NCBI RefSeq assembly: GCF_000346465.2
Contig: NC_034010.1
Span: 11,310,558-11,374,557 of the forward strand
Origin: Prunus persica
Lineage: Eukaryota; Streptophyta; Magnoliopsida; Rosales; Rosaceae
Length of the DNA stretch: 64,000 nt
Direction of reading: 5' to 3'
Part shown: one piece after another, positions 8,793 to 37,436 of the stretch
How the letters are laid out: the number at the start of each line of letters is the position of its first letter
Numbering within the stretch: the stretch's first letter is position 1
Program-made: the position numbers and the translations under genes
Notes under the pieces: generated by a model
The model's input: only the letters and a program-made list of their open reading frames with translations
The model's database searches: none
What the model was told of the DNA's origin: nothing

Positions 8793-8969
8793 TGTTATAA
8801 AACCAAAGAATTGAGGAGAGAATTTAGAAGCAAGAAAAGAACCCTTGGATTGGTTCCTCTCTTCAGTATTATATCTCCCATACATTACAAGGAGGGGTGA
8901 ACCCTTTTGTAGGCAAAGTCCCTTCCAACATGTGGTGGGCTCCACCTTATCACCTTATCATTTACAACA
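8793..8969 (-). repeat. 3' LTR of element 1
   Basis: 177 bp, TGTT...AACA ends on either strand, flanked at 8788-8792 by the target duplication CACTT. Two mismatches against 16801-16977. Confidence 0.93.
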
Positions 8970-8980
8970 CTCCCCCTTGG
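8970..8980 (-). promoter_or_regulatory. Polypurine tract of element 1
   Basis: Minus strand CCAAGGGGGAG lies directly before the 3' LTR, as expected for plus-strand DNA priming. The identical tract is in element 2 at 37234-37244. Confidence 0.85.
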
Positions 8981-9005
8981 AGACCACAAATGATACGGAA
9001 TATGC

Positions 9006-9388
9006 CTCGTTAAAAACCTTGCCAGTAAAAACTCAGTGGGACAAAAACTGGTCGAAGGGAAAAAGAGTACATAACCATGTGTAACATAAAATTCTGTGTA
9101 TATTGACACGCGTGCGACACTGCCTCGTTAAAACCTTGCAAGGAAAAATCCAGTGGGATAAAAACCTGGACGAAGGAAAAAGAGTACAGTGTTTGAAGAT
9201 CTTTATTGATAGCACGCTCCCCCTGATGCTTGGCAAAATATCTTTAAGTCATACTGTTGATCATCTTTCTGAATATCGTAGTTGACACTGCTTCTGTGAG
9301 TCAATCTTGAGCGACACTGCCTCGTTAAAACCTTACCAGGAAAAACTCAGTGGGATAAAAAAAAACTGGATGAAGGAAAAAGAGTACA
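9006..9388 (-). repeat. Three copies of a 65-70-bp motif near the 3' end of element 1
   Basis: Blocks at about 9006-9068, 9122-9186 and 9318-9388 share CCTCGTTAAAACCTTGC, CAGTGGGA and GAAGGAAAAAGAGTAC. Element 2 has four such blocks (36630-37210). They sit just upstream of the polypurine tract and are non-coding here. Confidence 0.8.
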
Positions 9389-10480
9389 GTGTGTGAAGGT
9401 CTTTATTAATACCACGCTCCCCCTAAGGAATATCTCCCCCTGAAAACTTCATGACTAGCTTTTTCCAGTAAGCGACCATAAAAATTTTCATAGTATCATC
9501 CCAAAGTGGTGGTGATGGAGCTGAGCCCTATCTGGTCCAGTATACTTCTGGAAAAAACATTTAAGTGTCCAACGGATAATCCTCAAAAAAATGTTTCAAT
9601 ACTTTCTTAGTATAAGCAAGAATCTCGTTGGCATAATGCTCGATCTTTAAGTCGAGACAAATATTTCTTGAACTCTTCAAAAGCTTTAATGTGTTGCAAA
9701 CACATTATAATCAATATACTCACTGATGCAATTTATGCACATTAGCATTGAGTACAGATTTTGTGCTTCAGGCACATGTCTTTCAGGGACTTGTTTCATG
9801 CAATTTCGATCCTTTCAAGGATTTTGTTTAAAAGGGTTAAACTTTATGACACATTATATAGCTTTAACCCCGCTATTTATACATATTTAGGGAATCGCTT
9901 CTGGCGACATGCTCCGTGCATTTAATAACCCTTAAAGATAATATGTTGGTCTTCGTAATTGTGCGGTAAGGGGGGCACAATTGAATCTGTAAATATGAAA
10001 AAACCCAACATTCCTTCTTTATGCCAGAAACATTGTGTCATACAAAGTAGGTATATTCCCTTTTATTCCGAACACCCAAGTATAACTTTCAGTATTAACA
10101 TCTTTTGGGGTTCGTACTGTGGATTTGTTCTTTCACGTTCATTCTCATCTATAATGGAATTACCTCATTCCATTTTGGCTAATGATATTGTCGACATTTA
10201 ATAATTGAACGTGGTTCCAATCAACACAGCTCATTGATGATTTGAGTAGCTACTCCAAAACCAAAAATTGTCATTCATCAATTCATGATCTCATCATTCT
10301 CATTTGCATGCGTATGCATCAATTATAAGCATTTCTTTGCTTTTGGGTACCCAAGCCACTTCAGGGGGCTTTTATGATGTGAGAATGTGGATTATAACCT
10401 CCAATGGAGCGTTATTTTGCAGTAGGGCATGGATAATCTCCATTTAGGGAGTTGGAACATTTAGAACCCATATATCTGTC

Positions 10481-10700
10481 ATGCTGCAGGCATGCCACAT
10501 ATTAATACATACATGTCAATTAATTTATGGGACTTTAACCCATATAATTTGCTACGCATTAGGTGTGCACAATATCAATATTGACATGTTAAAGGATTGT
10601 CCTTTTGGGACTTCAATCCATATCATTTGCTACGCAACAGACGTGCATCATATTGATCACTGCTATACCCATATTCTGTTCTTATGGGACTTTAATCTGT
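10481..10700 (+). repeat. Two-to-three-unit version of the 78-bp repeat (element 1)
   Basis: Contains the units recognised by ATTTGCTACGCA and GACTTTAACCCATAT or GACTTCAATCCATAT, homologous to the longer array at 35118-35640 in element 2. The open frame through it is a by-product of the 3n unit length. Confidence 0.7.
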
Positions 10701-11772
10701 GCAACGTATTATCAATGTATTTCTACTTGCAATCATACAAGCCATTCTTTTGGAACGGATTTATCTCCCCATTTGGTTACCTTTCAAGATAAAATATCAA
10801 ATAAGTATATAAGCATAAAACAACACAAGTATTGCTTACATCCTTAGGTGGGAGAAACTTTTCTCAAGTATCATTCAAGCTCGTATCGGCCCAGTAAATA
10901 TAATGTAGCGCTTGATGATCTAGTTATATCCTGCAAGAGCAAAATTACAACTCTTTTGCCTATGTCAAAACAAATAACCCTCAGAGTTAGGATCACTTCA
11001 TGGATTCTTTCTTCAGATGTTCATTCTAAAGAAATAAAATCTCTTATGAACAGAGAGTTACAAAAAGAGAAAAAATGCAAAAAAAATGTGATATTGATTG
11101 CAAGATAAGGCAAGCAATCAAGGAAGGAAGCTGGTGGGAGCGTCTAATAAGCTCTCATTTCTCCTAGTCTAGAAGGACCTCAGGAGATTAGAGCATAAGG
11201 TCGCCTTCACAGTTCCCTGATGTGGCGGAAACGTGATCAGGGATAGTCTCGCTTCCTGAATGGATGATCAGAGATAGTCTTGCTTCTCGGGCATATTGAG
11301 TGCTCACTGATAAGAAAAATAAGTAGATATTGCATCACTAGGTATGGAGAAAACTGGATGTCTTCTGCAAAGAAAATTTCGTTAGTAACACATTTATACA
11401 CAAATAAGAGAAATAGGTAGAACCGGTGAATTTCAAATTAACCATAAGAAAATTGCGAGATTCTCGGGGCACTTTTGAAAAAGTAGCTCCGTGAAATCTG
11501 CAAAGCAAGATCGGCTTTGACGAAAATAATACTTGAAAACGCCGAAAGTGCCGACAAACATTAATGGAGGCAGCGTGAAGTTTTGGAATCTAGAAAAGAA
11601 AAAGAGAATATGGGGATCTGAGATAATATTGGGGTCCTGGAAACTGTAGCCATATTTCCTCCTATAGATATTGCCTTTGCAAAACTTGATTCGAGCAACT
11701 GCGTTTCAACTCAACTTCCTTCATTTTATGAAACTTTAGTTTTTCTAAGACTTTCTTCGAAACCTTCTTAAA

Positions 11773-12160
11773 ATGGCTTCCTCTTCTTCCAGCCCAAATT
11801 ATTTCAATTTAAATGATGCTCCCACAACAACCAGTGACGCCAATGGCTTCTAGCATTCAGAGTGCTGCTTCTGTTTCTAACATGGCTGATCGTTTGCGTG
11901 CTAGAGCAAACGAGGTTCAGAAGCTAACAACTGAAAATTCGTCTCTTCAAAGGATGCTTCATGAGTCTCAACAGGAGGTTGAGAAACTTAAAGGAGAGAA
12001 TAATGCCTTGTTGAAACTGGTGAGTTCGTACTCTGTTGATACACTGAGAAGGCTATACATGCTGCAGGTCTCCAATGAAAGAATTTTGGGAGACCACGAG
12101 AGGCTTATGGCTAAGCTTACGAGGTGTTGTCCTCTTCCATCAGAGGCTTCCAGAACATGA
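11773..12160 (+). pseudogene. Antisense coiled-coil ORF inside element 1 (frameshifted)
   Basis: This runs opposite to the element's own transcription. An ATG at 11773 opens MASSSSSPNYFNLNDAP and stops at 11851-11853. A +1 frame then continues to 12160 with a Leu/Glu-rich heptad region (ADRLRARANEVQKL, ENSSLQRMLHESQQEV, LKGENNALLKLV), probably a coiled coil of about 60 residues. One frameshift near 11835 separates the halves. I do not recognise a function. Element 2 keeps the upstream sequence (34130-34240) but lacks the whole reading frame, so it is either an insertion in element 1 or a deletion in element 2. A bZIP factor was considered, but there is no basic region. Confidence 0.6.
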
Positions 12161-13369
12161 TGTAATTTTATAGATTTTACAAGGCCTGCACATTCATTGC
12201 AGGTGGAAAAAATCTATCTGTTGTATGCTCCTTTCCTGTTATAATAATTGCACACATTCTTAAATTTGCACCTGTGGTTTTTATGTCTTTTCAAAATGAC
12301 GGTTTGGAACCTTATGCCTTATAGGTTCAAATAACCACATCGACTCTCCCAAATTTCATATTTCAACGTATGGGAGCCCGGAACTTTTGGCCTGGGCTAA
12401 ACATTTATTCGCCCTTTTCAAATGGACATGAAATATGAATTGAGTAAAAGCCACGATAATATCACAATGTAGTAGTGAAGAGCATTAACTACTATATACC
12501 CACAACCTCAAATTCGGGATTTCTCATATATTTGAATCCATGTGCTTCCGGCCCAGATATAACAAAATATGTTGGGAGCCTCAATTCATCATTTGAGGTT
12601 TATATTGATATTATCTATTTCACGGTGTATTCTTAACAACCAGAATTCACAAAATATATTTCTTCCTTGAGGTGTCGATTATAACATAATCGGACTTTAT
12701 TAAATTCATCATTTTCTTAGACCAAAGAAATATGTGGTGTACCACAATTTGCAATAATACCTCAAGGGTTGTCCATTTAACTGTTGGAACTTTAGGTTCT
12801 TAACACTGTTAGATTTTGAACTTCAGGCCAAAATCACATATTCTCATAGTATGGACATTTTTACAATTTTCTGTACATATTTCTGGACTTCAAGCCCTTA
12901 CATAATTGTCCATATTTTGAGGAACTTCTAGCATCTCATTTAATTGCTCATCCATGAGTTTAAGGAACTGCAGGTTCCTTTTTGAATAGTGATGGTTTTC
13001 CCAAAATGATTAATATTTATGTATACGTCACTATTCATATATCCGGTACTATTCATCAAGTCATGAATACGTATCTATTCATGTGTACAGTACATTTTCC
13101 AGTACAGTTATTATCCATGTGTACGGCACTATGAACCAATACGGTACTGTTACATCATTAAGGAACCCCAGGTCCTTATTTACATGTCAGGGATCAAGGA
13201 CCCTCAAGTCCAATCACATGTTTACAAATATAGTACCGGAGAGACTGCCAGCTCTCATATTAATATCATCAAGGATCTTTAAGTCCTGATGTAATTGTAT
13301 GATGAGGATCAAGGAACTTCTGGTCCTGATCTGCATACTGTAAAAACTCATCATACAGCACAATTAATC

Positions 13370-13760
13370 CATAAAATAAATTGCTGGTAAATAAATTACT
13401 GGTATGGACGATAAACCCGCACCATACTTTAAATAAATGTAAATGTGCGGTAAAATAAATTCATAAATTAAATTGCTTGCTGTATGGACGTTAATCCCGC
13501 ACCATACCTTAAATAAAATTAAATGTGCGGTAAATTAAATTCATAAAGTATGAGGGTTAATTCCACATCATACTTTAAATAAAAGTAAATTTGCGATAAA
13601 GTAAACGTGCTTGTATGGGCACTAATTTTGCCCCATACATTTAAATAAAAGTAAAGGCGTTAACGATAAACCCGCACCACCCTTTTAAATAGATACTGTT
13701 GTATGGGTAATAAACCTACACCATACAGTAAATAAAATAAATGTGGGAATAAAAACCACC
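13370..13760. repeat. Degenerate 70-80-bp tandem repeats of element 1
   Basis: About five units, each with a variant of CCCGCACCATAC followed by TTTAAATAAA and AAATGTGCGGTAAA. The same array, inverted, lies at 32826-33250 in element 2, so it is part of the shared module. Confidence 0.85.
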
Positions 13761-14232
13761 ACTGAATAAGATAAGAAAAGTATTAGTATTACTAACGGCC
13801 TTCCACTAATAATATGTTTAATATTACCAAGAATCCATTTTTGTTAGTGGTTAGTAATAGAATAGCAAATAAATATAGTATATTATATATATATATATAT
13901 TGTCAACTTGAATTGCCTCCCCATTTTTTTTCGGTGGAATTCCCTTCAAAACTAGAGGAAATAGGAAATAATATAATATTATTATATTAATATATGTAAC
14001 TAGAAAAGTAGATATATTTATAATATTAAAATAATCAATATAATTACTTGCTTTTTATGATCAATATAATGATATAATATTAAAATAATAGAGAAGATAA
14101 GGGAGCAAAGATCTTATCGCTTATTCTTTCGGTGGGTTTTGTTGTTCTCATCAAAAGATGCTTGAGCACTTTCCTTGGGTCAGTGGCTAAGAAAAATTTG
14201 TGGACGAGAAGAAGGGTGCTGTGCCAATAATC

Positions 14233-14811
14233 TCAGCACCCAAAGCTGTGCCCTTGCATCTTCTCTTTGTTCCTAAAGAATGTCGCTGATTCAGTTTGGT
14301 TTACTTGGTCATCCTTATTCTCCTTGTTGTCTGATGAGATTCTCCTCCTACTTCTCCTCCTGCTCCTCTTCTTGGAATCGACGCTCATCAGCGTTTGAGC
14401 TTCGTTCTCGCTGGCATACTCTTTGACCAACATGGGATTGTCATGCTTATAATTGAACATTCCCGCTGGAGCACTAGCCTGAGTCCTTGGTCTTGGGGGT
14501 GTCGCTAGAAGCGAGTAACAGCAGCCGGGTTCCTTGTCAGAGTCGGAGGACAGCCCAGCTTCTAGTAGTACTTGTTTGGTTCGTTTATCATTGGATGACA
14601 ATGTTTCCTCCTCGTCTACATCCCCGTCAAAGCTTTCCATGGACAAGAGTGACATGTACATACTCATACCACTATGTTCTTGGGCATCATGATCTTGATC
14701 TTGATGTAGGCCTTGGTAGAAGTAGTTACCATCATCATCATCATCAATTTCATCCTGATCAGAAGCACCACAGGTGGAACTCCTACTAGTACACATAGAC
14801 AGCCTGGACAA
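14233..14811 (-). pseudogene. Unidentified captured coding fragment fused to RBCS in element 1
   Basis: An open frame runs on from the RBCS fragment for about 193 codons to a stop at 14233. It is acidic first ([12 protein letters not shown]), then has [15 protein letters not shown] and a basic stretch [11 protein letters not shown] followed by SSDNKENKD, which looks like a nuclear localisation signal. The composition is of a real host protein rather than of the AT-rich element, so I read it as a second captured segment. I do not recognise the family. The boundary with RBCS is the codon after YLLHN at about 14812. Confidence 0.5.
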
Positions 14812-16572
14812 GTTGTGTAGAAGATAATCTACTTCCTTGGCTAATGACTCGGCAGATAGGGGAGGAAGGTAAGAGAGAGTCTCGAACTTCTTCAATCCAA
14901 TTGGAGGTCACACTCGCATGCACTGAACTCTTCCACCATTGCTGGAGATAGAGGTAATATCATTGTTGGCCTTGCCGAGCTGAGCAACGCAAGCTTGTAA
15001 CCCAAGTGAGGGCATCGAAGTGTTGGAATGCTGGCTCAGCTATAGCGGGTCGGGTCATGCATGGGCAATGTTCTGGCCCGCCTGTTCCAAGCAAGGAGTT
15101 GAGCCATGTGGCTTGGGCGAAGGCTCTGGGCTTCATGGTTCCTGTTGTGAAATTATTGCAAGCGCACAATCCATACAAGTAATATAGAAATAAGTAGAGT
15201 GTCGTTCCCACGAAGACTGTAATTTCCTATTAACTACCAATTATGATTAATGCATAAGTTTATTTGAACAGTTGATTAAGAAGATTGATTAATTTTAAGA
15301 AAACTAAAACAATTATGAAAAATAACAATTTAATTAACAATAGAAAATTAAGATGATGAGACACTAGAGCATCCGACTTCACCATAACCAATTCTACTTA
15401 ATTCTTATAGCCAATTAACCCTAATTACTATCCATGTTGACAGTTGGTTTCTCCTAATTCATTCGATATCCCCTCTCAGGCTCAACCAAAAGTATTCTCA
15501 ATTAACAACCCATTCTCTCTCGAGCAACGGATTTAGAAAACCAAGAACCCATTAAGTTCTATGAGAACCTACAAGAAAACTGCATGAGTCATGTTAGTCC
15601 CTCTCGGGCACTCATTCAAGTCATGGTATTTGTTACAAGAAGCAAACACCAAACATCTCCTCTCGGTCTCCGCTTGGATCATCAATTAAATATTAGCTAG
15701 ATATTTAAATCATTAAGAACAGTAACAAATACTCAACATGAGATAATAATCAGAAATTAATATAACGATAGAAATTAAGTATTCAAGGTTAGGCTACATC
15801 GTAGCCCTAGCAAGGGAAATTAGTTCATGACAGAAGAAAATATAAACAAGAGAATTATTCTCATAAAACCAATTTGGCCGATGGACTTGATCTTCAGAAT
15901 CTTCACAGGAACACCTTCAAAAGCTCCTCAAATAATGCAGCAGCAAATTCTTGGCTTCCTCTGATATTTCTCTGGTTGAATGAAAGTTGGTGGAAAAATA
16001 TGGTAGAGAAGACGATGGTGGAAAAAGATGATGGGTAATTGATCTTTTCAACAATGACCTAAACTCCCTATTTATAAAACTCCTAGAAATCCTACCTAAG
16101 GAATAATTACAATTGTTATAAAAATAGGATTCCTTCTAAAATAAGGTCTTCTTTATTTCTCCTTATTTGACTTGATAAGACTTGCACCATCTTGAACTAG
16201 GAAATTTGACAACATTCCTTGCAACAAAAGGAATGACTTGGCTTCTTTTTAATTGATCTTCATCTTCTTGCCTTTTTTAGCACACTTTCTCCTATTTCAC
16301 AATTCCTTCACAAATCTCACAAAACCAATTAAAAACAACCAATTTAATCTGAGAAATTAATAAATAAATAAGCAAAGGAGGCATAAAATATATATAAAAT
16401 ATAGACTTATCAGTTCCTATAGTGGAGGGCACTGCGTCAGGCTGGTTTCACAGAGCAATGATTACAACACAAGCTTGTAACCGGAGTGGGGGCTTTGAGG
16501 TGTTGGAACATTGGCCAAGAATTAGCGGGTCTGGTGAACTACAGCTGCTGATGAAACCATGAAGGAAGCCAT
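14812..16572 (-). pseudogene. RBCS: Captured RBCS fragment (Rubisco small subunit transit peptide and N-terminus)
   Basis: The ATG at 16572 opens MASFMVSSAAVV, a chloroplast transit peptide start, preceded by an A-rich leader (tcaaacaagaaacagagg). After the solo LTR (15143-16412) the frame gives KANNDITSISSNGGRVQCM, then [18 protein letters not shown] and [10 protein letters not shown], diagnostic of the Rubisco small subunit. The conserved Trp after the mature N-terminus is TGA (14908-14910). No intron occurs at the transit/mature junction, where nuclear RBCS genes normally have one, so the source was spliced RNA. A transit-peptide segment is present twice (around 16510 and 15020, both reading SNTS.P.L.LQACV). 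Rubisco function is impossible here. Confidence 0.88.
15143..16412. mobile_element. Solo LTR (1270 bp) inside the captured RBCS fragment
   Basis: TGTTGTGAAATT...GACTTATCA has TG/CA ends and is flanked by a perfect 5-bp duplication GTTCC (15138-15142 and 16413-16417). No internal coding region is seen. It carries short segments such as gtgtcgttcccacgaagac. Removing it makes the two halves of the RBCS fragment adjacent. A complete non-autonomous element with TG/CA ends is the alternative. Confidence 0.75.
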
Positions 16573-16787
16573 TTTCCTCTGTTTCTTGTTTGATATATGA
16601 GAGCTGAAGAGATGAAGCTGGGCTTTGTGGTGTGGTTTGAAAGAGAAACTCATTATTGCAGAGTCTTGCTTTCTTATCAGCAGGCCAAAGATTCGGTTCC
16701 AGGAACCAGAATTGAGAGGAGGTGCATAGAGTTGTGAGGAGAGAAAGAGAGAGAGCGTTGAGGCTCTAAATTTAGAGATAGAGAAAT

Positions 16788-16800
16788 CGTGCTGATAACG
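16788..16800 (-). promoter_or_regulatory. Putative primer-binding site of element 1
   Basis: Minus strand CGTTATCAGCACG directly follows the 5' LTR; element 2 has the same at 31038-31050. It does not begin TGG like a site for a tRNA 3' end, and its complement resembles a tRNA anticodon arm (GUGCUGAUAACG). Confidence 0.65.
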
Positions 16801-16977
16801 TGTTATAAAACCAAAGAATTGAGGAGAGAATTTAGAAGTAAGAAAAGAACCCTTGGATTGGTTCCTCTCTTCAGTATTATATCTCCCATACATTACAAGG
16901 AGGGGTGAACCCTTTTGTAGGCAAAGTCCCTTCCAACATGTGGTGGGCTCCACCTTATCATCTTATCATTTACAACA
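16801..16977 (-). repeat. 5' LTR of element 1
   Basis: 177 bp, two mismatches to 8793-8969, followed at 16978-16982 by the target duplication CACTT. Confidence 0.93.
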
Positions 16978-16982
16978 CACTT

Positions 16983-19842
16983 CTATTAACTTTTTTATTG
17001 TCTCTTAATTGACAGACTTATTATAATTGTCCTGGAAGGACCAAACTGGAACACTTTGGTATGCAAGGGCCAAAGTCCCACAAGAGCCAAAATTCCAGAG
17101 GCAAAATGAAAATTGAATTTTATAGTTATGTCACAAACTTGTATAATTTTTATATATGTAGAAAAAGCAGTAATAATTTATTGATAAAACATAAGAAAGT
17201 ACATAACAGTCATAGTGTCAAATATGAGTACAACATCTTCAGTAACCAAACACAAAAATAATTTGGGTTGATCTAAAGAGAATTATGCATAAATAAATAA
17301 AATATTTAAAATTCCTATTCGGCATACCAAAGTACATGTACTCAAACTTACAATACATATTTACCGCACAATTTATATAGTTAGGTGTAAACTGTCAAAA
17401 AAAAGTTCAAGTAGCCAAGCATCAGGTGAAAAGTTTAGGCTATATTGCTAAAATTTTGCCTCTGTTTTCTTTTTTGAATCAAATAAAAACTTCATTAGAT
17501 AAACTTTGATGGTACAATATAAATCGTTAATTATGCCTTTGTTTAAATTGTTAAAACATATGTTCTCAATGTAAATAGTTAATTATGTTCTTTTTAAATG
17601 ATTTGTTATTGACACTTCAAAAAAGTATCATACATGTATTCAATTTAGATTTTTAAAGAGTTTATAAAAGTCTAATAGTATTCAATTATGACTTTTAAAA
17701 AATATTTAAAATATATTCTAACAAAAATATACGTGAATTCTTGAAAGTTTTGCAAAGAATTTTGAGTATCGAAAATATAAGTGTGGTCACTATTGTGTAT
17801 TAAGTATTGGGGATTTAATTAAGAATTGTATTTTGACTATTTTTCAATCCAATCCCACTTAATATAATGAGCATTTTTGAGAGTGGAAGTGGATGGCCCC
17901 AAAATTGGGATATGCTCATGCTGATGGATGCTTGATTTGATCCCTTAGGGTATGTTTGGTAGGACTCACTAACCTGGATTGGACAAAATAGCACTTAAAA
18001 CCCATGTTTGGTAAGAGGGATGACTAACTTAAATGAGACTATACAGTCCAACAGTGAAAAAAATGGCTCACTAGCTCCTCTAATATAATGAGCCTAAAAT
18101 GTGGTTCACAAAATAGTACTGTCGCTAAACTGAACAGGCGAGTCCAACACACTGGCTTGGCTTCTCTTCCCTGAAGCCATTCATCACTTTCTCTTCCGCA
18201 ACTTCCCTACCTCAACAAAATTGAAGCTCCAAGAAGTATATTTTCTTGATTGAAAAAACTGAAGTTCCAAGATCTGATTGGACCCAACAATAAAAGACAA
18301 AAAAGTATTTTTAGAATTTCTTCTGATCCAACTCTGGAAACCCATCTCCTCCGACCCATCGTCGTCCACTGCACTGCCCCCAACCCCAGCAACATCTATT
18401 GGTTTATTAAAATAAAAACCTGATATGGATTTGGTTGAAGAAAGAGAGTGGAAAGAGAGAAAAATAAGGAGAGAGAAGGAGGAGGGGAGGGGGGCTTGGT
18501 TGTCGAATAAAGAGGAGAGAGGGGAGGGGAGTTGTCGCGTGGGGTGTGGGGGGAGGAAGAGAGGACGGAAGGGGTGGGTGGGGTTTGGGATATTTGTTTT
18601 GGTTTAAAAATATTATCTTTAAGAATATTAAAAATCAGCTTCTTTAAAAAAATATAAGAATTTTTATTTATTTATTATTATTTTAAATCTTTAAATTGGA
18701 TTTCTTTGTAACATTTATATATTTTAAGTCAAAATTCCTAATTAAATTTAAATATTATAATTTAATTCCTTGCATTAGCGCCCACAAAAGCACAAAGTTG
18801 AGCAAAAGTCTATCACGCTCTCGCCACCCAACCATCAAAAAATTCATTATTCTTGCATGTAGAAAAAAAAAGTTAAAATTAAAATTAAAAACTCAGTCGC
18901 ACCACCATCTTCGACACCCACCCAGCCTCCACCACTCCCATCACCCACCTAAGCCTCAACCACACCATCAACTCCGTCACATCAAGTTCTCTTTCTCAGA
19001 TGAGACGGTAACACATACCTCATCACACCCAACTTGTCGAAGGTGAAGAGGCGGATGAGTCTGTGTTGAAAGAGAGGTGTGTCGTAGCTGGTTTGGAAGG
19101 TCTTCATCTTGGGCTTGGATCAGTGTTAGTTTCATTGGGCAAGCCACTCCCCTTGTACGACTCCGATGAGCTCTTCTTCTTCTCTTCACCACGAGACCAA
19201 GTTTACCCAGTTGAATTTAACTTGAAACCCAGATCTGGGTTCTTTCTTTGGTAAAAAGGTTTTTTCTTTTTTTCTCAAAACACTCAACCCAGATCTGGGT
19301 TGACTTCATACTAGCAAAACTCACGGGATTTTTTCTAAGTAAATGGTCAAATTCCATTTCACATTAATCAGTGCCTTTCGAATTTGGGTCTTGATCTTGA
19401 AGATTAAGTTGCATAGTCTGAACTTAAAAACAGAGATAATGGGGTTCTTTTGCACTTGGACTTGGGTCTTGAATATTTCTAGGTCGAATGGGAATTGATT
19501 GCTACACTAAAGAAAGCAAATAAGAATCCATAATCAATTTGTTCTTGTTACATGAAGGAGAGCTGCAGTGGTGAGGGTTTAGTTGGAAAGTAGGGGCTGA
19601 GGGTGGGTTGTGTTGGGTTCAATTGGAATTGATGTTGCTTTTGTTTCACTTTGAATTTGGGTGGATTGAGAAGTCTTTTGGAGAGTGATTTGTGGGCTGC
19701 TGTGGTGGCGGTGGTGGAGATCCATGGTAGAGACGTCGAAGGTGCATAAGGTTGGTGCGTGTTGATTGGGGAAGATGGTGGAGGTGGGGTGGGAGAGAGA
19801 AAAAGGGTTGGGGTTGGGGGCGTTTTTGTTTTTTAAATTATT
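16983..19842. other. Intergenic, no gene supported
   Basis: AT-rich with scattered GC-richer patches (18420-18600 purine-rich, 18900-19260, 19560-19820 GGT/GTG-rich). At 17948 GGTATGTTTGGTA resembles an hAT-type end, but I find no matching partner. Short open frames here lack recognisable domains. Confidence 0.45.
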
Positions 19843-19846
19843 TTAA

Positions 19847-23013: not shown

Positions 23014-23762
23014 TCATGCCCAATTTCCATCTGTGTAACCATCAACATTGATATGACCATGTTTTGAGAACATAAGTCCTTTTCTAGGCGTATACTTCAA
23101 ATATCTAAGTATGCGAAGAATTGAATTCATGTGGTCTTCACTTGGAGAATGCATAAATTGACTGACTACGCTCACTGCATAGGTTATGTCTAGTCGAGTA
23201 TGTGACAAATGGATCAGTCTTCCCACTAAACTTTGGTATATTTTCTTGTTAATTGGAACTTGATCCGGGTATTCTCCAAGATGATGATTCTGAACAATAG
23301 GAGTGTCTATATGTTTGCAATTTAGCATTCCCATGTCTGTCAACAAGTTCAAGACATATTTCCTCAAAGAGATATATGCCTTGCTTTGATTTGGCCACCT
23401 CAATCCCCAAGAAATACTTGAGCCAACCTAAAGGTCCACCTAGATTCTTTATCGCAATTCAATAGCTAAATAGTTTGCAACCGAGATATTTCCTGTTCAT
23501 CATTCCCAATAATAATCATATCATCAACATAGATTATTAAAGTTGATACCTTCCCTTTATGATATTTCAAGAACATAGTATGATTTGAATTGCTTTGCCT
23601 GAACCCATAATTTTCCTCATTGCCAAAGTGAATTGTTCGAACCATGCACATGATGGCTGTTTCAAACCATATAGTGGTTTTCGCAACTTGCACACCATAC
23701 TTGTCTAAGTAGATGTTGTACATCCCGATGGAATAGATATACTTCTTCTGTGAGTTCACCAC
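23014..23762 (-). pseudogene. Copia reverse transcriptase and RNase H fragments
   Basis: The segment 23762-23466 holds the RT catalytic block LIIYVDDMIIIGND. The segment 23403-23014 holds the RT/RNase H connection with KYVLNLLTDMGM, the block YQSLVGRLIHLSHTRLDITYA, AVSVVSQFMHSPSE, RILRYLKYTPRKGL and GYTDGNWA (first RNase H aspartate region). A frameshift and stop separate the two. A second, near-duplicate block at 23840-24060 suggests an internal duplication. Confidence 0.88.

Positions 23763-27476: not shown

Positions 27477-27482
<6 letters not shown>

Positions 27483-27562
<80 letters not shown>
27483..27562. repeat. (GA)n microsatellite, about 80 bp
   Basis: Pure GA dinucleotide tract inside the loop of the PIF-like element. 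Confidence 0.97.
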
Positions 27563-27567
<5 letters not shown>

Positions 27568-28577: not shown

Positions 28578-29206
28578 TAAGGTGGTAAAGTGAGAGTTGA
28601 CCAATGTTTCAAGGTGCACTATAACAATTAAGCCTTAACATGATTATATTATTAGTTAGTGCATCCCTTCACTCCTCAAGATTATATTATTATATTATCT
28701 ATTCCAATTTTTTTTCCTTCTTCTTATCTCGTCTCATCCCATCTCATCTCCTCTCCTCATCTAATCTAAGCATCTCCTACTAGTTCCAGAATTGTGAATC
28801 CCTAAATTAATTTTTCTGTTGGTAGATTGGGGAGATTCTAAAATCAAAAGTGTGGGCTTTTGTTCAATGCAAAATTGGTCCTTGTAGAAATCAATTTAAG
28901 ATATTTTTTCATGATTTGATATCAAATGAAAAAGAAAAAGTGATTTTTGTTTGTTTGTATATATATATATATATATACAAGCCTAATATTTACTTTTGCC
29001 CTGGGCCTTGAAAAATTCAGGACTGACCCTGCATATAATGAAGAAATAATATGTGAAGACCAATTATCACCAAAATAAAACATTTCCGTATTTCCCTGCT
29101 GATTAATGACACAATATATTTTCAAGTACAGGTGCTTACATGACCTGGCATGTACGTTTCCATACTCCCTAACCAAGGTGATTAGTTTAAGTGACTTGGT
29201 ATGTAT

Positions 29207-29208
<2 letters not shown>

Positions 29209-29250
<42 letters not shown>
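29209..29250. repeat. (CT)n microsatellite
   Basis: About 20 CT dinucleotides. An (AT)n tract lies nearby at 28960-28978. Confidence 0.95.
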
Positions 29251-29344
29251 TCTTTCCTGAACCAAATCCACAGCCTGCAACCCAATACAAGTAAATCCCA
29301 AATGCTAAAACCAACACCACAACCACACAACCGATTGTGATGCC

Positions 29345-29790
29345 ACAGATTGCTCAATTAGACAAATAAGACGAAGAAGAACTCAGCTGAAGCACGGGCA
29401 AATTGTTGTTGAGGTAGACGCCGATGTGGTTTCCATCTGGGTCGTTGAACTATGAGTTTTTCCCAGTATAGAACTCGACGACAAGCAACCGAGCAATGAA
29501 GGGGATGATGGCGTTGGTGAAGAGGCTGAAGTATTGGTTGGCAAGGGCGTTGCGGGGGAGGTGGAGTTGAAGAGGACGAATGAGAGGCTGAAACATGGGC
29601 TTGAAGCGATCTCGAGGAAGGGGGGAGATGGGGGAGACAGAGAAGACACAGGAGCTGGAGAAGGAGGTGAGGGAGGTGGAATTGGAGATGGGTTTCATGG
29701 TGAGCTTTGTTGGGTAGAAGACGTGGCCATCCCTAATATAGGGAGGGCCGCGAATTTGGTTCAGGTAGGGAGGAGAGAGATGGAAAAAGA
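29345..29790 (-). pseudogene. L-type lectin receptor kinase, lectin-domain fragment (decayed)
   Basis: Plant LecRKs are plasma-membrane receptor kinases with an extracellular legume-lectin domain. Readable pieces here: FYPTKLTMKPISNSTSLTSF, FSLSFVLFNSTSPATPL (another frame), ANQYFSLFTNA, LLVVEFYTGKNS, a TAG stop, then FNDPDGNHIGVYLNNN. These match the beta-strands of the lectin domain, including the Asp/Asn metal-binding region (DPDGNHIG). At least two frameshifts and one stop occur. No kinase domain is present. Confidence 0.82.
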
Positions 29791-29957
29791 GAGAGAAAAG
29801 GGGAAGCGATGGGCGGTTGAAATGGAAGTGGGGGGGAAAGGGGTGGGTCGTGAGGTTCAGATAGGGAGGAGAGAGATGGAAAAAGAGAGAGAACAGGGGA
29901 AGTGATGGGCAATTGGAATGGGAGTTGGGTGGAAAGGGGTGGGTCATGAGGTTCAGA
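29766..29957. repeat. 96-bp tandem duplication
   Basis: Two copies starting with TAGGGAGGAGAGAGATGG (29766 and 29862), each ending GGGGTGGGTCRTGAGGTTCAGATAG. It adjoins the lectin-kinase fragment and is G-rich. Confidence 0.85.
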
Positions 29958-29959
29958 TA

Positions 29960-30840
29960 GAGGACAGAGTGTTAATTTTTTTTCCTTCAGTTTTTTAAAT
30001 TATTTTAATTGTTAATTAATTATTTTATTTTTATTAGCTGATGTGGCACAATATGTATGAGTTTAAATGGGTCTTTGATTGCCACATTTTGACCCAAAAA
30101 AAAACTTTGATTAACACGTTATCTTTTAATGGATAACTTAATAATCAAACTAACGGAAATATGAAAGTGGTAGAAAAATAAAATTTTAGATACGAAGTTG
30201 AGATGAAAAAACCTTTATGTACTAAAGTCATAATTTCGGGAAACTTTCGAGTAGTAAAGTGAAATTAATCCCTTTAAATATGAATATTTTAATAGTACAG
30301 CCTGTGGTATACTGCACAAAATGGTTTTCTTTTTTGTAATTAAGTAATATCATTATTATTTCTTTAGTGAATAATTAGTATTAACATATTTTACCAATTT
30401 CATAAATTACTTAATAAATAGTAATTAATTATTTTAAATTATTTTTTGGACTTTATTTTTTATTTTTTATTTATACAAAATTAGTTTGTTTAGTTTAATA
30501 TTTTGCAATGAATTAATATCTTAGTCTTATTTAATTAATATTAATTAATATTTATGTTTAATCGCTTGTATTGATGTTTTCTTGACTACTTTAGTTTGTG
30601 GGTGTTCTTCATTTTGAAGCATTTCCTTGGGTTTGTAGTATGAATTTCAGGGTTCAGTGTAACATTTGTGACTAGTATTCAAATTTATACTCACAATAAA
30701 TGCCAAAGATTGATATAATTTATAGCATAATATGTTAGCTCCCTTTTCTTACTCTTCTTGACATCTCCTTTTGTATGCTAGATGTTTTGCATGTGAGACT
30801 CAAAGCGCTTCTCTTCTAAATACATCTGAAGAAAAATTTA
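29960..30840. other. AT-rich intergenic, no gene seen
   Basis: Left flank of LTR element 2, possibly intron sequence of the helicase pseudogene whose exons lie on the other side (37483 onward). No exon recognised here. Confidence 0.4.
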
Positions 30841-30845
30841 TCATA

Positions 30846-31037
30846 TGTTGTAAATGTGGAGTCCCCAAAATGCCCCCATGTGGAATCCCCAAATTGCCCC
30901 CCTTAAATGCCTATAAATAGGGCTTCTCCATTTGTAACAAAACATATAGAAACTAAACAAGAATCAGATCATGAATTAGAAAATCAGTCTCTCCTCTCTA
31001 TTCCAATTCTCTCCATTTTCTCTCTACATTTATAACA
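30846..31037 (+). repeat. 5' LTR of element 2
   Basis: 192 bp, TGTTGTAAATG...TTATAACA, with a TATAAATA box at 30912-30919. Confidence 0.95.
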
Positions 31038-31051
31038 CGTTATCAGCACGA
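31038..31051 (+). promoter_or_regulatory. Putative primer-binding site of element 2
   Basis: CGTTATCAGCACGA directly after the 5' LTR, identical to element 1. Confidence 0.65.
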
Positions 31052-31463
31052 GTCTTTAACCGGCTGAAATCTCTGATTTCTTGATCCCAGAAATTGATCA
31101 AGACACCCAGTTCGAAACCAAGCCCAGATTGCCCACCCACTGCTCTCCTTCTCTCTCTGTCTCTCTCTTTCCCAGAGTCTCTCACATCAGATAGATCAAA
31201 CGATCTCTGTGCTTGGTTTAGTCCTGTAATTAAAGAGATGAGTAAAGAGGCAAGGCAAGCAGAAACACTCTTCCTCCTTTACTTTGTAACCCAACAAACA
31301 AACACAGAGAGCACAACCAAAAAAAAAAAAAGGTATCAAACCAAGACACAGGCCGTCTCCCATTCCAGTTGCAGACCTCCAAACCCACTGCACGTCCACA
31401 ACAAAAAGCCCAGCTAGTGGTGGACGGCCTAGATTCCGATTTCGATCCGCCCCGACTTCACTC

Positions 31464-31622
31464 ATGAGCTCCGGCGCGTCCGATTCCTCTGGGGGCCCCT
31501 GCGCTTCGACGTCGCTCGCCGACAAGGACAAGCAGAAGGAGAAGGCCCGCGTCAGCCGTACCTCTCTCATACTCTGGCACGCCCACCACAACGACGTCGC
31601 CGCCTCACCTTCCTCCAACTAG
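31464..31622 (+). pseudogene. VIK: Captured N-terminus of a VIK-type ankyrin/Raf-like kinase
   Basis: ATG at 31464, 52 codons, then TAG. The stretch KQKEKARVSRTSLILWHAHH is the conserved start of the plant VIK (VH1-interacting) ankyrin-repeat MAP3K-like kinase, preceded by a Ser/Ala-rich head as in that family. The match ends at NDVAA, where the first ankyrin repeat should begin, and switches to SPSSN and a stop. Kinase and ankyrin domains are absent. It lies in the same orientation and place as RBCS in element 1. Codons are GC-rich, unlike the AT-rich element. Confidence 0.8.
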
Positions 31623-32067
31623 CGCCACACCAAGTCCAACAATGACAGAGGAGCTCTTGTCGTCGTCCAAGCCAAGGAACTGACCTCCAGCACGCCGCCT
31701 CACCTTCCTCCACCTAGCGCCACACCAAGAACTCCAAAGGCCCTACATCAGATTTCCCAACATAACCCAGCACAGAGATACAAAGCAAACCTCTGGTCAT
31801 GGCGTCTTTGTGGAGGACGCTGATGGCCCCACCGGAGGCGTAGATGGCCCTGAGGCCCCTATTGATGTCGGCCACACCCACCGGAATCTGCACATACCCC
31901 TTTGTGATTTTCAACTTGTCTTGCTTGACCGAGAAGAGACAATAACAGATTTACCACTTGACAATGGGGTTTGAGTTCTTTTGAGGGGCTGTGCTAAGCT
32001 CATGTTATTCTCATCTTGCTAATAATATTTTCTTCTGAGAAAATGAAAGTTGAAGAAGCAAAAGAAG
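31623..32067 (+). other. Further captured, unidentified sequence in element 2
   Basis: GC-rich sequence in which CGCCGCCTCACCTTCCTCC occurs twice (about 31598 and 31694). A minus-strand frame 31914-31714 stays open for 66 codons (VQIPVGVADINRGLRAIYAS) and could be an inverted host fragment. I cannot name it. Confidence 0.4.
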
Positions 32068-32367
32068 ATGAGCAGCGAGCCCAAAACCAGTAGCACAACT
32101 GGAGGAGCAGGAGGAAGGGGATTTAGGGCGAGAATGGAGCACTACATGTACAGCGGTGAGAAGAAGCACGTATTTGCTGGCATCGTTCTTGTCAGAGCCG
32201 TCTTTGCCGTTCCTTGGTACCTCATGACTCGAGGGGCAGAGCATCAATCCCATCAAGATTACTTAGAGAAAGCTGATAAGGCAAGGAGCCAAAGACTTTC
32301 TTCAGGGGCTTCTTCTGCTCCAAGGACAAGGTGCAGCAGACCAAAAACAGCCAACTTCAATACCTGA
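32068..32367 (+). pseudogene. Captured copy of a small single-pass membrane protein gene
   Basis: ATG at 32068, 99 codons. A Ser/Gly-rich head, then ARMEHYMYSGEKKHVFAG, one hydrophobic segment of about 18 residues (IVLVRAVFAVPWYLM) and the tail HQSHQDYLEKADKARSQRLS. I recognise this as a conserved plant small membrane protein of unknown function, but have no symbol. The frame is nearly intact; the last 15 residues (RTRCSRPKTANFNT) look foreign. Downstream (32367-32579) another open stretch (LLLKTVFHGFSASLIPDFSKG) may be a further captured piece. Confidence 0.6.
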
Positions 32368-32825
32368 GATTGGATCTACTCCTCAAGACCGTCTTCCATG
32401 GCTTCTCCGCATCTCTCATCCCTGACTTTTCCAAAGGAGATGATCACGCAGCAATGATGAAAAGCAAACCCACCGATAAAGAAAAACTACACGCTCCACA
32501 GGAAGGAATGATGACGGCCACAATGATAAAATTCCCACCGATAAAGAAAAGCAAACCCACCGAACCAAAGAAAGAATAATTAAATAAATTAAAATAAAAT
32601 TAAAAAAAAAAGGGATCACTCAGCAAGGGCATAAGTGAAAGAATAAGCGATAAGTTTTCTGCTCCCTTATCTTCCCTATTATTTCCTATTATATTTATCT
32701 GCTTTTCTTTTACTAACCATTAACAGAAATGGACCCTCGGTAATACTAAACATATTATCAGTGAGAGACCGTTACTAATACTAACAATTTAATTTATGAA
32801 TTATTTTTACTGCACATTTACATTT

Positions 32826-33250
32826 ATTTAAAAGGGTGGTGCGGGTTTATCGTCCACGCCTTTACTTTTATTTAAATGTATGGTGCAGAATTAGTGCCCA
32901 TACAAGCACGTTTAATTTACTGCAAATTTACTTTACCGCACATTTATTTTATTTACTGTATGGTGTAGGATTATTACCCATACGACAGTATTTATTTAAA
33001 AGGGTGGTGCGAGTTTATCGTCCACGCCTTTACTTTTATTTAAAAGTATGGAGCAGAATTAGTGCCCATACAGGCACGTTTAATTTATGAATTTAAATTA
33101 CTGCACATTTACATTTATTTAAAAGGGTGGTGCGGGTTTATCGTCCACGCCTTTACTTTTATTTAAATGTATGGTGCTGGTTTAACGTCCATACCAGTAA
33201 TTTAATTACCAGCAATTTACTATATGGATTAAATGTGCTGTATGATGAGT
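32826..33250. repeat. Degenerate tandem repeats of the shared module (element 2)
   Basis: Units with GGTGCGGGTTTATCGTCCA, CTTTACTTTTATTTAAA and GTATGGTGC, inverted copies of the 13370-13760 array in element 1. Confidence 0.85.
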
Positions 33251-35117
33251 TTTTACAGTAAGCAGATCAGGACCAGAAGTTCCTTGATCCTCATCATACG
33301 ATTACATCAGGACTTGAAGATCCTTGATGATGATGTTAATATGAGAGCTGACAGTCTCTCCGGTACTATATTTGTAAACATGTGATCGAACTTGAGGGTC
33401 CTTGATCCCTGACATGTAAATAAGGACCTGGAGTTCCTTAATGATGTAACAGTACCGTATTGGTTCATAATGCCGTACACATGGATGATAACTGTACTGG
33501 CAAATGTACTGGAACCTGTAGTTCCTTAAACTCATGGATGAGCAATTAAATGAGATGCCAGAAGTTCCTCAAAATATAGACAACTATGTAAGGGCTTGAA
33601 TGTCCATACCATGAGAATATACGATTTTGGCCCGAAGTTCAAAATCTAAGGGGATTAAATGTCCATACCATGAGAATATGTGATTTTGGCCTGAAGTTCA
33701 AAATCTAACAGTGTTGAGAACCTGAAGTTCCAACAATTAAATGGACAACCCTTGAGGTATTATTGCAAATTGTGGTACGCCACATATCTCTTTGGCATAA
33801 GAGAATGATGAATTGAGGCTCCCCACATATTTTGTTATATCTGGGCCGGAAGCTCATAAACCCAAATATATGAGATATTAGCGTGGCTTTTACTCAATCC
33901 ATATTTCATGTCCATTTTGAAAAGGGCAAATAAATTCTGAGTTTGTGTTTAGCCCAGGCCAAAAGTTCCGGGCTCCCATACGTTGAAATATGAAATTTGG
34001 GAGAGTCGATGTGGTTATTTGAACCTATAAGGCACAAGGTTCCAAACCGTCATTTTGAAAAGACGTAAAAACCACAGGTGCAAATTTTAAGAATGTGCGC
34101 AATTATTATAACAGGAAAGGAGCAAGTTGAAACGCAGTTGCTCCAATTAAATTTTGCAAAGGCCATATCTATAGGAGAAAATATGGCTACAGTTTCCAGG
34201 ATCCCAATATTATCTCAGATCCCTATATTATCTTTTTCTTTCACAGAGTCCAAAACTTCAAGTGGCCTCTGATAATGCATGTCAGCACTTTCGGCGTTTT
34301 CAAGTATTATTTTCATCAAAAGCCGATCTTGCTTTACGGATTTCACGGAGCTACTTTTTCAAAAGTGCCCCGAAAATCTTGCAATTTTCCTATGGTTAAT
34401 TTGAAATTCCTATTCATTTTATTTGTATATAAATGTGTTACTAACGAAATTTTCTTTGCAGAAGACATCCAGTTTTCTCCATACCTAGTGATGCGATATC
34501 TACTTGTTTTTCTTATCAGTGAGCACTTAATATGCCCGAGAAGCAAGACTATCTCTGATCAGCCATTCAGGAAGCGAGACTATCCCTGATCACGTTTCCG
34601 CCACATCCGGAAACTGTGAAGGCGACATTATGTTCTAATCTCCTGAGGTCCTTCTAGACTAGGAGAAATGAGAGTTTGTTGTTTGCTTCCACCAGCTTCC
34701 TTCCCTGATTGCTTACCTTCTATTTTTGCATTTTTTTTTCTTTCTGTAACTCTCTGAGGATTATTTGTTTTTGACAGAGAAAAGAGTTGTGATTTTACTC
34801 TTGCAGGATATAACTAGATCATCAAGTGCTACATTTACTGGGCCGATACAAGCTTGAATGATACTTGAGAAAAGTTTCTCACACCTAAGGATGTAAGCAA
34901 TATTTGTGCTATTTTATACCTATATACTTATTTGATATTTTATCTTGAAAGGTAACCAAATGGGAAGATAAGTCCGTTCCAAAAGAATGGCTTGTATGTA
35001 TCCATGAATTATTAAATGCAAATTTTATAGATTGCAACTTGGATACATTGATAATACACTGCCACAGATTAAAGTCCCATAAGAACAGAATATGGGTATA
35101 GCAGTGATCAATATGAT

Positions 35118-35640
35118 GCACGCCTGTTGCGTAGCAAATAATATGGATTGAAGTCCCGAAAGGACAATCCTTTGACATGTCAATATTGATATTATGCACG
35201 CCTGTTGCGTAGCAAATAATATGGATTGAAGTCCCGAAAGGACAATCCTTTAACATGTCAATATTGATATTATGCACGCCTGTTGCGTAGCAAATAATAT
35301 GGATTGAAGTCCCGAAAGGACAATCCTTTAACATGTCAATATTGATATTATGCACGCCTAATGCGTAGCAAATTATATGGGTTAAAGTCCCATAATATGG
35401 GTTAATGTCCCAGAAATTAATTGACATGTATGTATTAATCTGTGGCATACCTGCAGCATGACAGATATATGGGTGCACGCCTGTTGCGTAGCAAATGATA
35501 TGGATTGAAGTCCCGAAAGGACAATCCTTTGACATGTCAATATTGATATTATGCACGCCTAATGCGTAGCAAATTATATGGGTTAAAGTCCCAGAAATTA
35601 ATTGACATGTATGTATTAATCTGTGGCATGTCTGCAGCAT
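35118..35640 (-). repeat. 78-bp tandem array, open in one frame
   Basis: Units begin GCACGCCTGTTGCGTAGC at 35118, 35196, 35274 and 35352, exactly 78 bp apart. Two more partial units lie at about 35473 and 35552 with a 60-80-bp spacer repeat. On the minus strand each unit gives 26 residues (IHIICYATGVHNINIDM), so a 243-codon frame results. Element 1 has only two or three units. I treat it as a repeat, not a gene. Confidence 0.85.
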
Positions 35641-36629
35641 GACAGATATATGGGTTCTAAATGTTCCAACTCCCTAAATGGAGATTTTCCACGCCCTATG
35701 TAAAATAACGCTCCAATGGAGGTTATAATCCACATTCTCACATAATAAAAAGCCCCATGAAGTGGCTTGGGTACCCAAAAGCAAAGAAATGCTTATAATT
35801 GATGCATGCGCATGCACATGAGAATGGTGGGATCATGAATTGATGAATGACAATTTTTGATCATTAATTGATGAACGACAATTTTTTGTTTTTGGAGTAG
35901 CTACTCAAATCATCAATGGGCTGTGTTGATTGGAACCACGTTCAATTATTAAATGTCGACAATATCATTGGCCAAAATGGAACGAGGTAATTCCATTATA
36001 AATGAGAATGAACGTGAAAGAACAAACCCACAATACGAACCCCAAAATTTGTTAATACTGAAAGTTATACTTGGGTGTTCGGAATAAAAAGGGAATATAC
36101 CTACTTTGTATGACACACTGTTTCTGGCAGAAACAAGGAATGTTGGGATTTTCTCCATATTTACAGATTCAATTGTGCCCCCCCTTGTTACACAATTACG
36201 GAGACCAACATATTATCTTTAAGGGTTATTAAATGCACAGAGCATATCGCCAGAAGCGATTCCCAAAAGATGTATAAATAGCTGGGTTAAAGCTATATAA
36301 TGTGTCATAAAGTTTAATCCCTTTTAGACAAAATCCGTTGAGAGGATTGACAATTGCATAAAGCAAGTCCCTAAAGGACATGTGCTTGAAGCACAAAATT
36401 TGTACTCAATATTAATATGCATAAATTACCTCAGTGAGTACATTGATGTGATTGCAACACATTAAAGATTCTGCAGAATTCATGAAATATTTGTCTCGAT
36501 CGAGCATTATACCAACGAGATTCTTGCTTATACTAAGAAAGTATTGAAGCATTTTTATGAGGATTATCAGTTGGACACTTTAATGATTTTCCGGAAGTAT
36601 ACTAAACCAGATAGAGCTCAGCTCACACT

Positions 36630-37210
36630 GTACTCTTTTTCCTTCATCCAGGTTTTTATCCCATTGAGTTTTTTCTGGTAAGGTTTTAACGAGGCAGTGT
36701 CGCTCAAGGGTTTAGGGTATACTATGAAAATTTTTATGGTCGCTTACTGGACAAAAGCTAGTCCTAAATTTTTCAAGGGGAGATATTCATCAGGGGGAGC
36801 ATGGCCTTAATAAAGACCTTCATACACTGTACTCTTTTTCCTTCATCCAGGTTTTTATCCCACTGGGTTTTTCCTGGTAAGGTTTTAATGAGGCAGTGTC
36901 ACTCAAGATTGACTCACAGAAGCAGTGTCAACTACGATACTCAGAAAGCTGATCAACAGTATGACTTAAAGATATTTTGCCAAGCATCAGGGGGAGCGCA
37001 CCATCAATAAAGATCTTCAAAACACCGTACTCTTTTTCCTTCGTCCGGGTTTTTATCCCACTGGGTTTTTTCTGGCAAGGTTTTAACGAGGCAGTGTCGC
37101 ACGCGCGTCAATATACATGGAATTTTATGTTACACATAGTTATGTACTCTTTTTCCCTTCGACCAGTTTTTGTCCCACTGGGTTTTTACTGGCAAAGTTT
37201 TTAACGAGAC
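36630..37210 (+). repeat. Four copies of the 3' motif of element 2
   Basis: Blocks at about 36630, 36828, 37027 and 37143 share TACTCTTTTTCCTTC, TTTTTATCCCACTGGG and GGTTTTAACGAGGCAGTGTC. This segment recurs next to the polypurine tract in both elements. Confidence 0.85.
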
Positions 37211-37244
37211 ATATTCTGTATTATTTGTGGTCTCCAAGGGGGAG

Positions 37245-37436
37245 TGTTGTAAATGTGGAGTCCCCAAAATGCCCCCATGTGGAATCCCCAAATTGCCCCC
37301 CTCAAATGCCTATAAATAGGGCTTCTCCATTTGTAACAAAACATATAGAAACTGAACAAGAATCAGATCATGAATGAGAAAATCAGTCTCTCCTCTCTAT
37401 TCCAATTCTCTCCATTTTCTCTCTACATTTATAACA
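37245..37436 (+). repeat. 3' LTR of element 2
   Basis: 192 bp, preceded by the polypurine tract CCAAGGGGGAG (37234-37244) and followed by the target duplication TCATA. TATAAATA at 37311-37318. Confidence 0.95.

Follow-up and report, generated by a model that had tools for sequence, protein, structure and literature searches.

The 64,000-nucleotide (nt) stretch of the peach genome analyzed here (Prunus persica, contig NC_034010.1, positions 11,310,558 to 11,374,557 of the forward strand; hereafter "the window") holds two long terminal repeat (LTR) retrotransposons, elements 1 and 2, which share a module of about 5 kb and carry different fragments of host genes between this module and their primer-binding site. 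We consider it likely that they belong to a non-autonomous Bianca-type Ty1/copia family that acquires host mRNA by template switching and is mobilized by a family encoding gag-pol.

Two complete elements with a common module

Both elements are complete: element 1 spans 8793-16977 on the minus strand, and element 2 spans 30846-37436 on the plus strand (Table 1). Their LTRs measure 177 and 192 nt, with 2 and 3 differences within the pair, respectively; self-comparison of the element 1 LTRs yields 178 nt, the extra base being a matching base of the target site duplication (TSD). Both elements carry the identical 14-nt primer site CGTTATCAGCACGA, for which these are the only matches in the window at up to two mismatches (0.19 expected), and the polypurine tract CCAAGGGGGAG. 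The modules are homologous in blocks of 86 to 99% identity, and no gag-pol was found in either element by tblastn with related gag and pol sequences. Alignment, TSDs, and tblastn bear out this part of an earlier description of the window made from the letters alone (the sequence-only reading). That reading did not separate from the body of element 1 a nested solo LTR, which belongs to another high-copy family, outside the one described here: it matches 39 other places at 97 to 100% identity, 10 of them over the full length and 29 over about 890 nt (best 40 of 256 candidates scored).

The search for further copies covered the 227.5-Mb assembly (192 contigs), and in all genome searches only the best candidates were scored. 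A 701-nt segment of the module gave 578 candidate copies, the best 40 of which were scored. A 29-nt module motif, chosen where overlapping 24-mers match 41 of 41 copies with at most one mismatch, occurs at 452 genomic sites (≤1 mismatch; reversed-pattern control, 0), and a motif joining the LTR end to the primer site occurs 730 times (≤1 mismatch; control, 0). Among the exact matches listed on C1 below 28.2 Mb, a primer site lies 2.0 to 4.5 kb upstream of 25 of 34 module sites on the same strand (mirrored control, 0 of 34). Eighteen ten-kb loci (designated by L numbers) were drawn from the 40 scored hits, from the half with the lower scores; the upper half is covered by 3.7-kb pieces that end before the cargo. 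All but L035 and L036 show an LTR pair around the module, and these 16 loci together with elements 1 and 2 make up our set of 18 complete copies.

Twelve of the complete copies carry cargo and have LTRs of 158 to 262 nt, with 1.2 to 4 kb between primer site and module. The other six (L033, L037, L038, L043, L046, and L048) carry none and have LTRs of about 500 to 570 nt, with about 100 to 260 nt from primer site to module. A 5-bp TSD flanks 17 of the 18 copies (the exception is L044); those of L039, L042, and L047 appear only after shifting the LTR edge. The two LTRs of a copy differ at 0 to 5 positions, and the interiors measure 4.1 to 8.4 kb, nested insertions included. When the 18 interiors were compared by tblastn with the proteins of a gag-pol element found in L035 (see below), its gag gave no match (the positive control was recovered in full), and its partial pol matched only L047, weakly and within the module (29% identity; E = 6e-4), a hit that was left out of the gag-pol count.

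Mosaics of host gene fragments differ among copies

The genome search with the module supported the proposal of the sequence-only reading that cargo is exchangeable on a constant module. The inserts of all 15 cargo-bearing copies differ, that is, those of the 12 complete copies and of three partial ones, L049 to L051, which share the leader of element 2, have each a different insert, and show no gag-pol open reading frame (ORF) in the 2.5 kb examined of each. With differing inserts, and with gag-pol counted in none of the 18 complete copies, neither a fixed element body nor a mere loss of gag-pol by elements 1 and 2 describes the copies examined. Cargo is present in 12 of the 18 complete copies and absent from the other six.

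Six inserts were traced through the genome, and they are mosaics of pieces of about 43 to 660 nt, each drawing on several chromosomes. The insert of element 2 comes from at least seven source places on five chromosomes (C1, C2, C3, C6, and C7); the stretches between its pieces have no scored match or match another element only, and its VIK-like piece has one other genomic place, at 99% identity. In L034, the beginning of a sugar-transporter domain (matching C8:13277354-13277981) accompanies a 100% matching piece from C5, and L032 holds the later part (C8:13275542-13276199) together with a 100% matching piece from C1. The two transporter sources are 1.2 kb apart on the same strand of C8, and the pieces are probably two parts of one gene. 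In L047 the cargo includes part of a sulphate transporter and a gene with four matching blocks at C1:36254339-36255701, among other pieces; L050 has an EF-hand gene in sense orientation and, in antisense, a PI-PLC-X gene.

The sequence-only reading had correctly recognized host pieces in both inserts of the window, but it listed fewer than there are and missed that they are mosaics of many loci. Its gene labels are provisional: RBCS in element 1 has a weak Pfam match (E = 0.006, below the family cut-off), and VIK and the small membrane protein of element 2, for which Pfam gave no hit, are putative names. Its description of the cargo as host 5' coding ends is not general, as the later part of the transporter domain in L032 shows.

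One route to such cargo described in plants is read-through transduction, in which transcripts spanning an element and neighboring genes carry adjacent exons along (PMC13317346). The chromosomal spread of the sources of element 2 and the occurrence of antisense pieces argue against it, and we give it hardly any credence.

Intron loss and junctions between sources

The transporter piece of L034 lacks exactly a 93-nt GT-AG intron, as seen by comparing its letters with those of the source (L053). The sulphate-transporter piece of L047 lacks a GT-AG intron as well, with TAT flanking the loss, and a plain splice was rejected for this joint because 27 nt of the following exon are also gone. An intron was likewise considered for the gap in the C7 piece of element 2 and rejected after reading the letters: the missing source sequence (about 69 nt) lies between two copies of GGCCAC and has no intron borders. 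The losses in L047 and in the C7 piece (source stretches L054 and L055) look like template jumps inside one RNA. Gaps between matching blocks that fit removed introns occur in element 1, element 2 (C3 piece), L032, L047, and L050, where the letters are mostly unread.

We compiled by hand 22 junctions between sources, leaving aside wide gaps (>20 nt) and cases in which elements lie on both sides. The two sources overlap by at least 4 nt in 12 of them, compared with 17% in a simulation of 253 joins. Two overlaps (39 and 46 nt) were excluded, since both matches may be elements, and a 34-nt overlap that was kept may reflect ambiguous sources.

Capture at the DNA level, as in Pack-MULEs or Helitrons, gives a similar look, with many genes and many mosaics. 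Against it stand the LTRs, the primer site, the 5-bp TSDs, and the exact loss of a GT-AG intron, and with one intron compared in full we judge this route extremely improbable. Processed host retrocopies inserted successively into the element as DNA would also be without introns, and nested insertion does occur, as the solo LTR of element 1 shows. Nevertheless, the fragments are joined end to end and, in the copies examined, confined between leader and module, and the A-rich sequence preceding the module belongs to a tail common to several elements with different cargo; retrocopy insertion is thus very unlikely.

The primer site points to Bianca and to a young gag-pol family

Except for a C opposite A34, the primer site is complementary to the tRNA-Ile anticodon arm. 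This A is edited to inosine, and primer sites complementary to a half-molecule of the edited tRNA-Ile have been assigned to the Copia lineage Bianca (Neumann et al. 2019, PMC6317226). The primer site found here is of this kind. ARAGORN found a tRNA-Ile gene with anticodon AAT and the matching arm in L052, and the arm has 20 copies in the genome.

A gag-pol element with the same primer site is nested on the opposite strand in L035. Its gag and integrase domains are recognized by Pfam, and in its pol ORF gag_pre-integrs is followed by rve and then by SH3-like domains, the stretch examined ending before the reverse transcriptase. Its leader resembles the module start of the cargo-bearing copies, with 88 to 94% identity over about 290 nt in 7 of the 12, 90 to 95% over about 160 nt in L041 and L047, and 74 to 82% in L039, L032, and element 2. 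Moreover, the end of its LTR is 81 to 88% identical to the six long-LTR copies. The first 1.6 kb of this gag-pol element gave 33 matches at 96 to 100% identity among the best 40 scored of 703 candidates, the query included, and on C1 below 28.2 Mb 10 of 11 such matches have a listed primer site at most 2.6 kb upstream. This gag-pol family is young, and, as far as sequence can tell, it may plausibly supply the enzymes for the non-autonomous copies. The sequence-only reading had overlooked it, together with the pieces shared between elements and the variation of the LTRs.

Shared segments record recombination between copies

The 105 pairs among the 15 inserts show 60 shared segments of at least 30 nt, which are prefixes starting at the primer site (36), module-side segments (21), or internal segments (3). 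Ten of the module-side segments were classed as tails by the script, and 11 were reassigned on inspection from the internal class, which thereby fell from 14 to 3. Element 2 is 99 to 100% identical to L049-L051 over 102 nt from the primer site on, with different cargo behind, and these three have about 150 nt in common among themselves before they diverge.

L047 shows the pattern most fully. Its 5' end is found elsewhere at 98 to 99% identity up to nt 114 (C4:24006393), 198 and 208 (C4:25299141 and C1:41621577), or 387 and 392 (C1:23883699 and C6:13275359), endpoints that lie at or near the source boundaries at 115, 203, and 384. The places C4:25299141 and C1:23883699 are themselves elements, since the shared tail lies about 1 kb downstream. 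The last 112 nt of the L047 insert are 100% shared with C1:15480096, upstream of a module site, and each piece of the middle (393-1161) has one other place (29 of 29 candidates scored). A strict "ticker tape," in which new pieces always adjoin the module, was rejected, since the shared last 112 nt include 39 nt of captured sequence; the new pieces lie in the middle. With shared prefixes and tails around a new middle, each copy appears to combine a prefix from one element, host pieces, and a tail and module from a different element.

The LTRs vary as well. Across the 12 cargo-bearing copies they are 64% identical on average (51 to 81%), versus 95% (91 to 98%) for the last 500 nt of the module. 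When the LTRs are split in two, at two split points the nearest relative of one half is never that of the other (12 of 12 elements, with about 8 expected by chance); 0 and 3 of 200 random column splits, respectively, reach 12 of 12. We read this mosaicism as probable exchange of LTRs between elements.

Prefix and tail sharing could also arise if genes had been captured once, in a founder, and then amplified and reshuffled by deletion and recombination, the present differences being old stock. The sharing of the EF-hand piece, the RBCS piece, and the first 392 nt of L047 fits this explanation, as does a survey of small LTR elements in which gene-bearing elements had at least two copies, with two exceptions (PMC4717578). 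However, the larger middle pieces of element 2, L034, and L032 match only themselves and host-gene-like loci among the hits scored (40 of 89, 40 of 46, and 23 of 23 candidates, respectively), and many pieces are 95 to 100% identical to their best other place. This is within the range of the LTR pairs, so that many captures look recent, and we regard a single founder capture as unlikely.

Template switching during reverse transcription as the favored explanation

If template switching is the source of the cargo, half of an edited tRNA-Ile would serve as primer on the element RNA, which would probably be packaged and copied by the enzymes of the young gag-pol family, whose primer site is identical and whose 5' leader is related. 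While making the minus strand, the reverse transcriptase would copy the module, leave its template between module and primer site, copy, in a series of short hops, one or more spliced host mRNAs packaged alongside it, and end up on the 5' portion of a second element RNA, the source of the leader and primer site. Each event would yield a copy with an inherited 5' prefix, a new host middle, and an inherited tail and module. Packaging by this family, the order of the hops, and capture accompanying recombination between element RNAs are steps that we infer from sequence comparison.

Several observations weigh against this explanation. Pfam (E ≤ 0.001) recognized 8 sense ORFs among 125 scanned and 3 antisense ORFs among 103, taking each distinct family as a distinct ORF; the totals were 133 and 106, with 8 and 3 left unscanned in module-like stretches of L040 and the end of L049. 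With 3 of the 11 recognized ORFs in antisense, the sense-only cargo of the sequence-only reading does not extend to the family, and minus-strand copying of mRNA would not by itself be expected to yield antisense cargo, so that plus-strand switching or antisense RNA would be needed. Some cargo is not private to one copy: the first 387 to 392 nt of L047 are common to two other places, the EF-hand piece of L050 occurs with different ends at three further element-like places, the RBCS piece of element 1 is found at one, probably two, other places, and L034 and L039 have 34 nt of cargo in common. The recurrence of the EF-hand piece implies repeated capture or recombination between elements. Microhomology at the junctions is modest (rank test, P = 0.045), and 5 of the 22 counted junctions have gaps. 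The first LTR split point separated nearest relatives in 10 of 12 elements, versus 7.9 expected, and is compatible with chance (24 of 200 shuffles reach it). For 75 of 100 listed primer sites, no exact module motif is listed in the 9 kb downstream, and the primer site therefore marks more than this family. Finally, the 15 inserts examined, 6 of them traced through the genome, stand for several hundred copies.

Capture by template switching may also be coupled to replication, if the enzyme routinely visits host transcripts when it switches from one element RNA to another. The few hundred copies would then amount to a standing library, derived from RNA, of exon mosaics that join several genes and mostly belong to one copy each; their layout of prefix, middle, and tail would record the history of recombination. 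The recurrence of RBCS, the sugar-transporter locus, and the EF-hand gene among the cargo gives a hint that capture follows mRNA abundance. We put this extension forward tentatively and lean slightly against it.

Features of the elements and of the window

Coordinates of the elements and of their pieces are given in Table 1. At one of its other places the EF-hand piece follows a listed primer site at a distance of about 380 nt, and once it apparently has the opposite orientation to its element.

Table 1. Features of elements 1 and 2 and matching places of captured pieces
Feature	Position	Strand	Remarks
Element 1, 5' LTR	16801..16977	-	TSD AAGTG at 16978-16982
Element 1, primer-binding site	16787..16800	-	Complement of tRNA-Ile anticodon arm, C opposite position 34
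Element 1, leader and cargo region	14172..16786	-	Contains the RBCS-related and 504-nt pieces
Solo LTR nested in element 1 cargo	15143..16412	-	1270 nt; TSD GGAAC at 15138-15142 and 16413-16417
Element 1, RBCS-related pieces	14812-14975		Match C1:30236131-30236416, two blocks
Element 1, 504-nt piece	14318-14821		Matches C3:119158-119658, 98%
Element 1, shared tail, module, and polypurine tract	8970..14171	-	
Element 1, 3' LTR	8793..8969	-	TSD AAGTG at 8788-8792
Element 2, 5' LTR	30846..31037	+	TSD TCATA at 30841-30845
Element 2, primer-binding site	31038..31051	+	
Element 2, leader	31052..31139	+	
Element 2, cargo	31134..32391	+	Pieces matching several chromosomes
Element 2, piece	31134-31258		Matches C3:9635492
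Element 2, VIK-like piece	31433-31604		Matches C1:28330345
Element 2, piece	31672-31735		Matches C6:3844316
Element 2, piece	31728-31770		Matches C2:26293811
Element 2, piece	31791-31913		Matches C7:18073186-18073376
Element 2, piece	31900-32002		Matches C2:26293946
Element 2, piece	32052-32319		Matches C3:7676381-7677390
Element 2, piece	32329-32391		Matches C1:22936584
Element 2, shared tail, module, and polypurine tract	32434..37244	+	Tail start 32434 to 32553, varies with the partner compared
Element 2, 3' LTR	37245..37436	+	TSD TCATA at 37437-37441
EF-hand piece of L050, other places	C1:18057539, C3:20874111, C2:17829040		

Two features lie within the module. At 34438-34461, TTACTAAC is followed by TTTTCTTTGCAG, like a plant branch point and 3' splice site, and overlapping 24-mers of this stretch match 41 of 41 copies examined with at most one mismatch. 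An antisense ORF of coiled-coil-like character lies at 11813-12160 (plus strand) and occurs also in L020, L041, L047, and L048, with up to 183 amino acids. It was rejected as a core gene of the module, with matches in 6 of 41 copies (2 partial and 1 with a stop); it is possibly an old captured gene or an extra ORF. Elsewhere in the window, tandem arrays of one consensus, 11.4 kb apart, occupy 50584-50780 and 61980-62176, perhaps within the LTRs of a further element, and an ORF at 23014-23427 (minus strand) resembles, judged by eye only, a fragment of Copia reverse transcriptase/RNase H.

Comparison with known gene-capturing elements

Large retrotransposon derivatives (LARDs) have a long conserved non-coding interior without gag-pol. 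The copies described here fit this definition, with interiors of 4.1 to 8.4 kb, no gag hit, one weak pol hit, and a module end that is 95% identical on average; we know of no LARD for which exchangeable host cargo is a feature. Terminal-repeat retrotransposons in miniature (TRIMs) are short elements with short LTRs, and the family falls outside them: its LTRs are short in 12 of 18 complete copies, and its interiors measure several kb. Gene-capturing TRIMs such as GmaRetroS15 nevertheless hold, as here, exon-only fragments of up to three genes between both LTRs, with a 5-bp TSD, whereas they measure 1.2 to 1.4 kb and mostly have at least two copies, compared with 5 to 9 kb, a constant module, and mostly copy-private cargo in peach (PMC4717578).

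The peach copies also agree with gene-transducing elements like Bs1 of maize in having exon-only pieces inside a complete LTR element with TSD, the intron loss being exact in one case. Bs1 holds segments of three host genes (PMC13317346) but is one element type with one gene set, whereas the sets differ among copies here. Bianca elements have the same type of primer site; those surveyed carry polyprotein domains, unlike the peach copies, which have the module and cargo and no gag-pol (PMC6317226). Onsen comes near to the present case through recombination between elements, the recombination described being between element copies rather than with host mRNA (PMC5668417). Pack-MULEs have many copies with many host fragments, some of them in chimeric transcripts (PMC13317346, PMC4717578), but are DNA transposons whose cargo has exons and introns (PMC4717578); the peach copies have direct LTRs, a primer site, and a polypurine tract instead of DNA-transposon ends, and the intron was lost in the case compared. 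Rosaceae elements with TGTT/AACA ends (PMC5659011) were considered as the same family and rejected, as the families described there belong to the Ale lineage or to TRIMs and differ in the type of their LTR ends.

The portions available of the open-licence literature, including PMC13359793, PMC7004133, and PMC13317346, contain no description of this family in Prunus or of gene capture by Bianca, which does not prove the family new. Gene-capturing LTR elements are known; the difference is the nearly copy-by-copy exchange of cargo on a constant module.

Gene capture by plant LTR elements has mostly been described from single elements or small families. With a multi-gene mosaic of its own in each cargo-bearing copy examined, the peach family makes the rate of capture, the choice of transcripts, the rules of the junctions, and orientation measurable within one genome. 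Such mosaics are easily annotated as genes, which matters for gene annotation, and they bear on how exon shuffling can arise via RNA.

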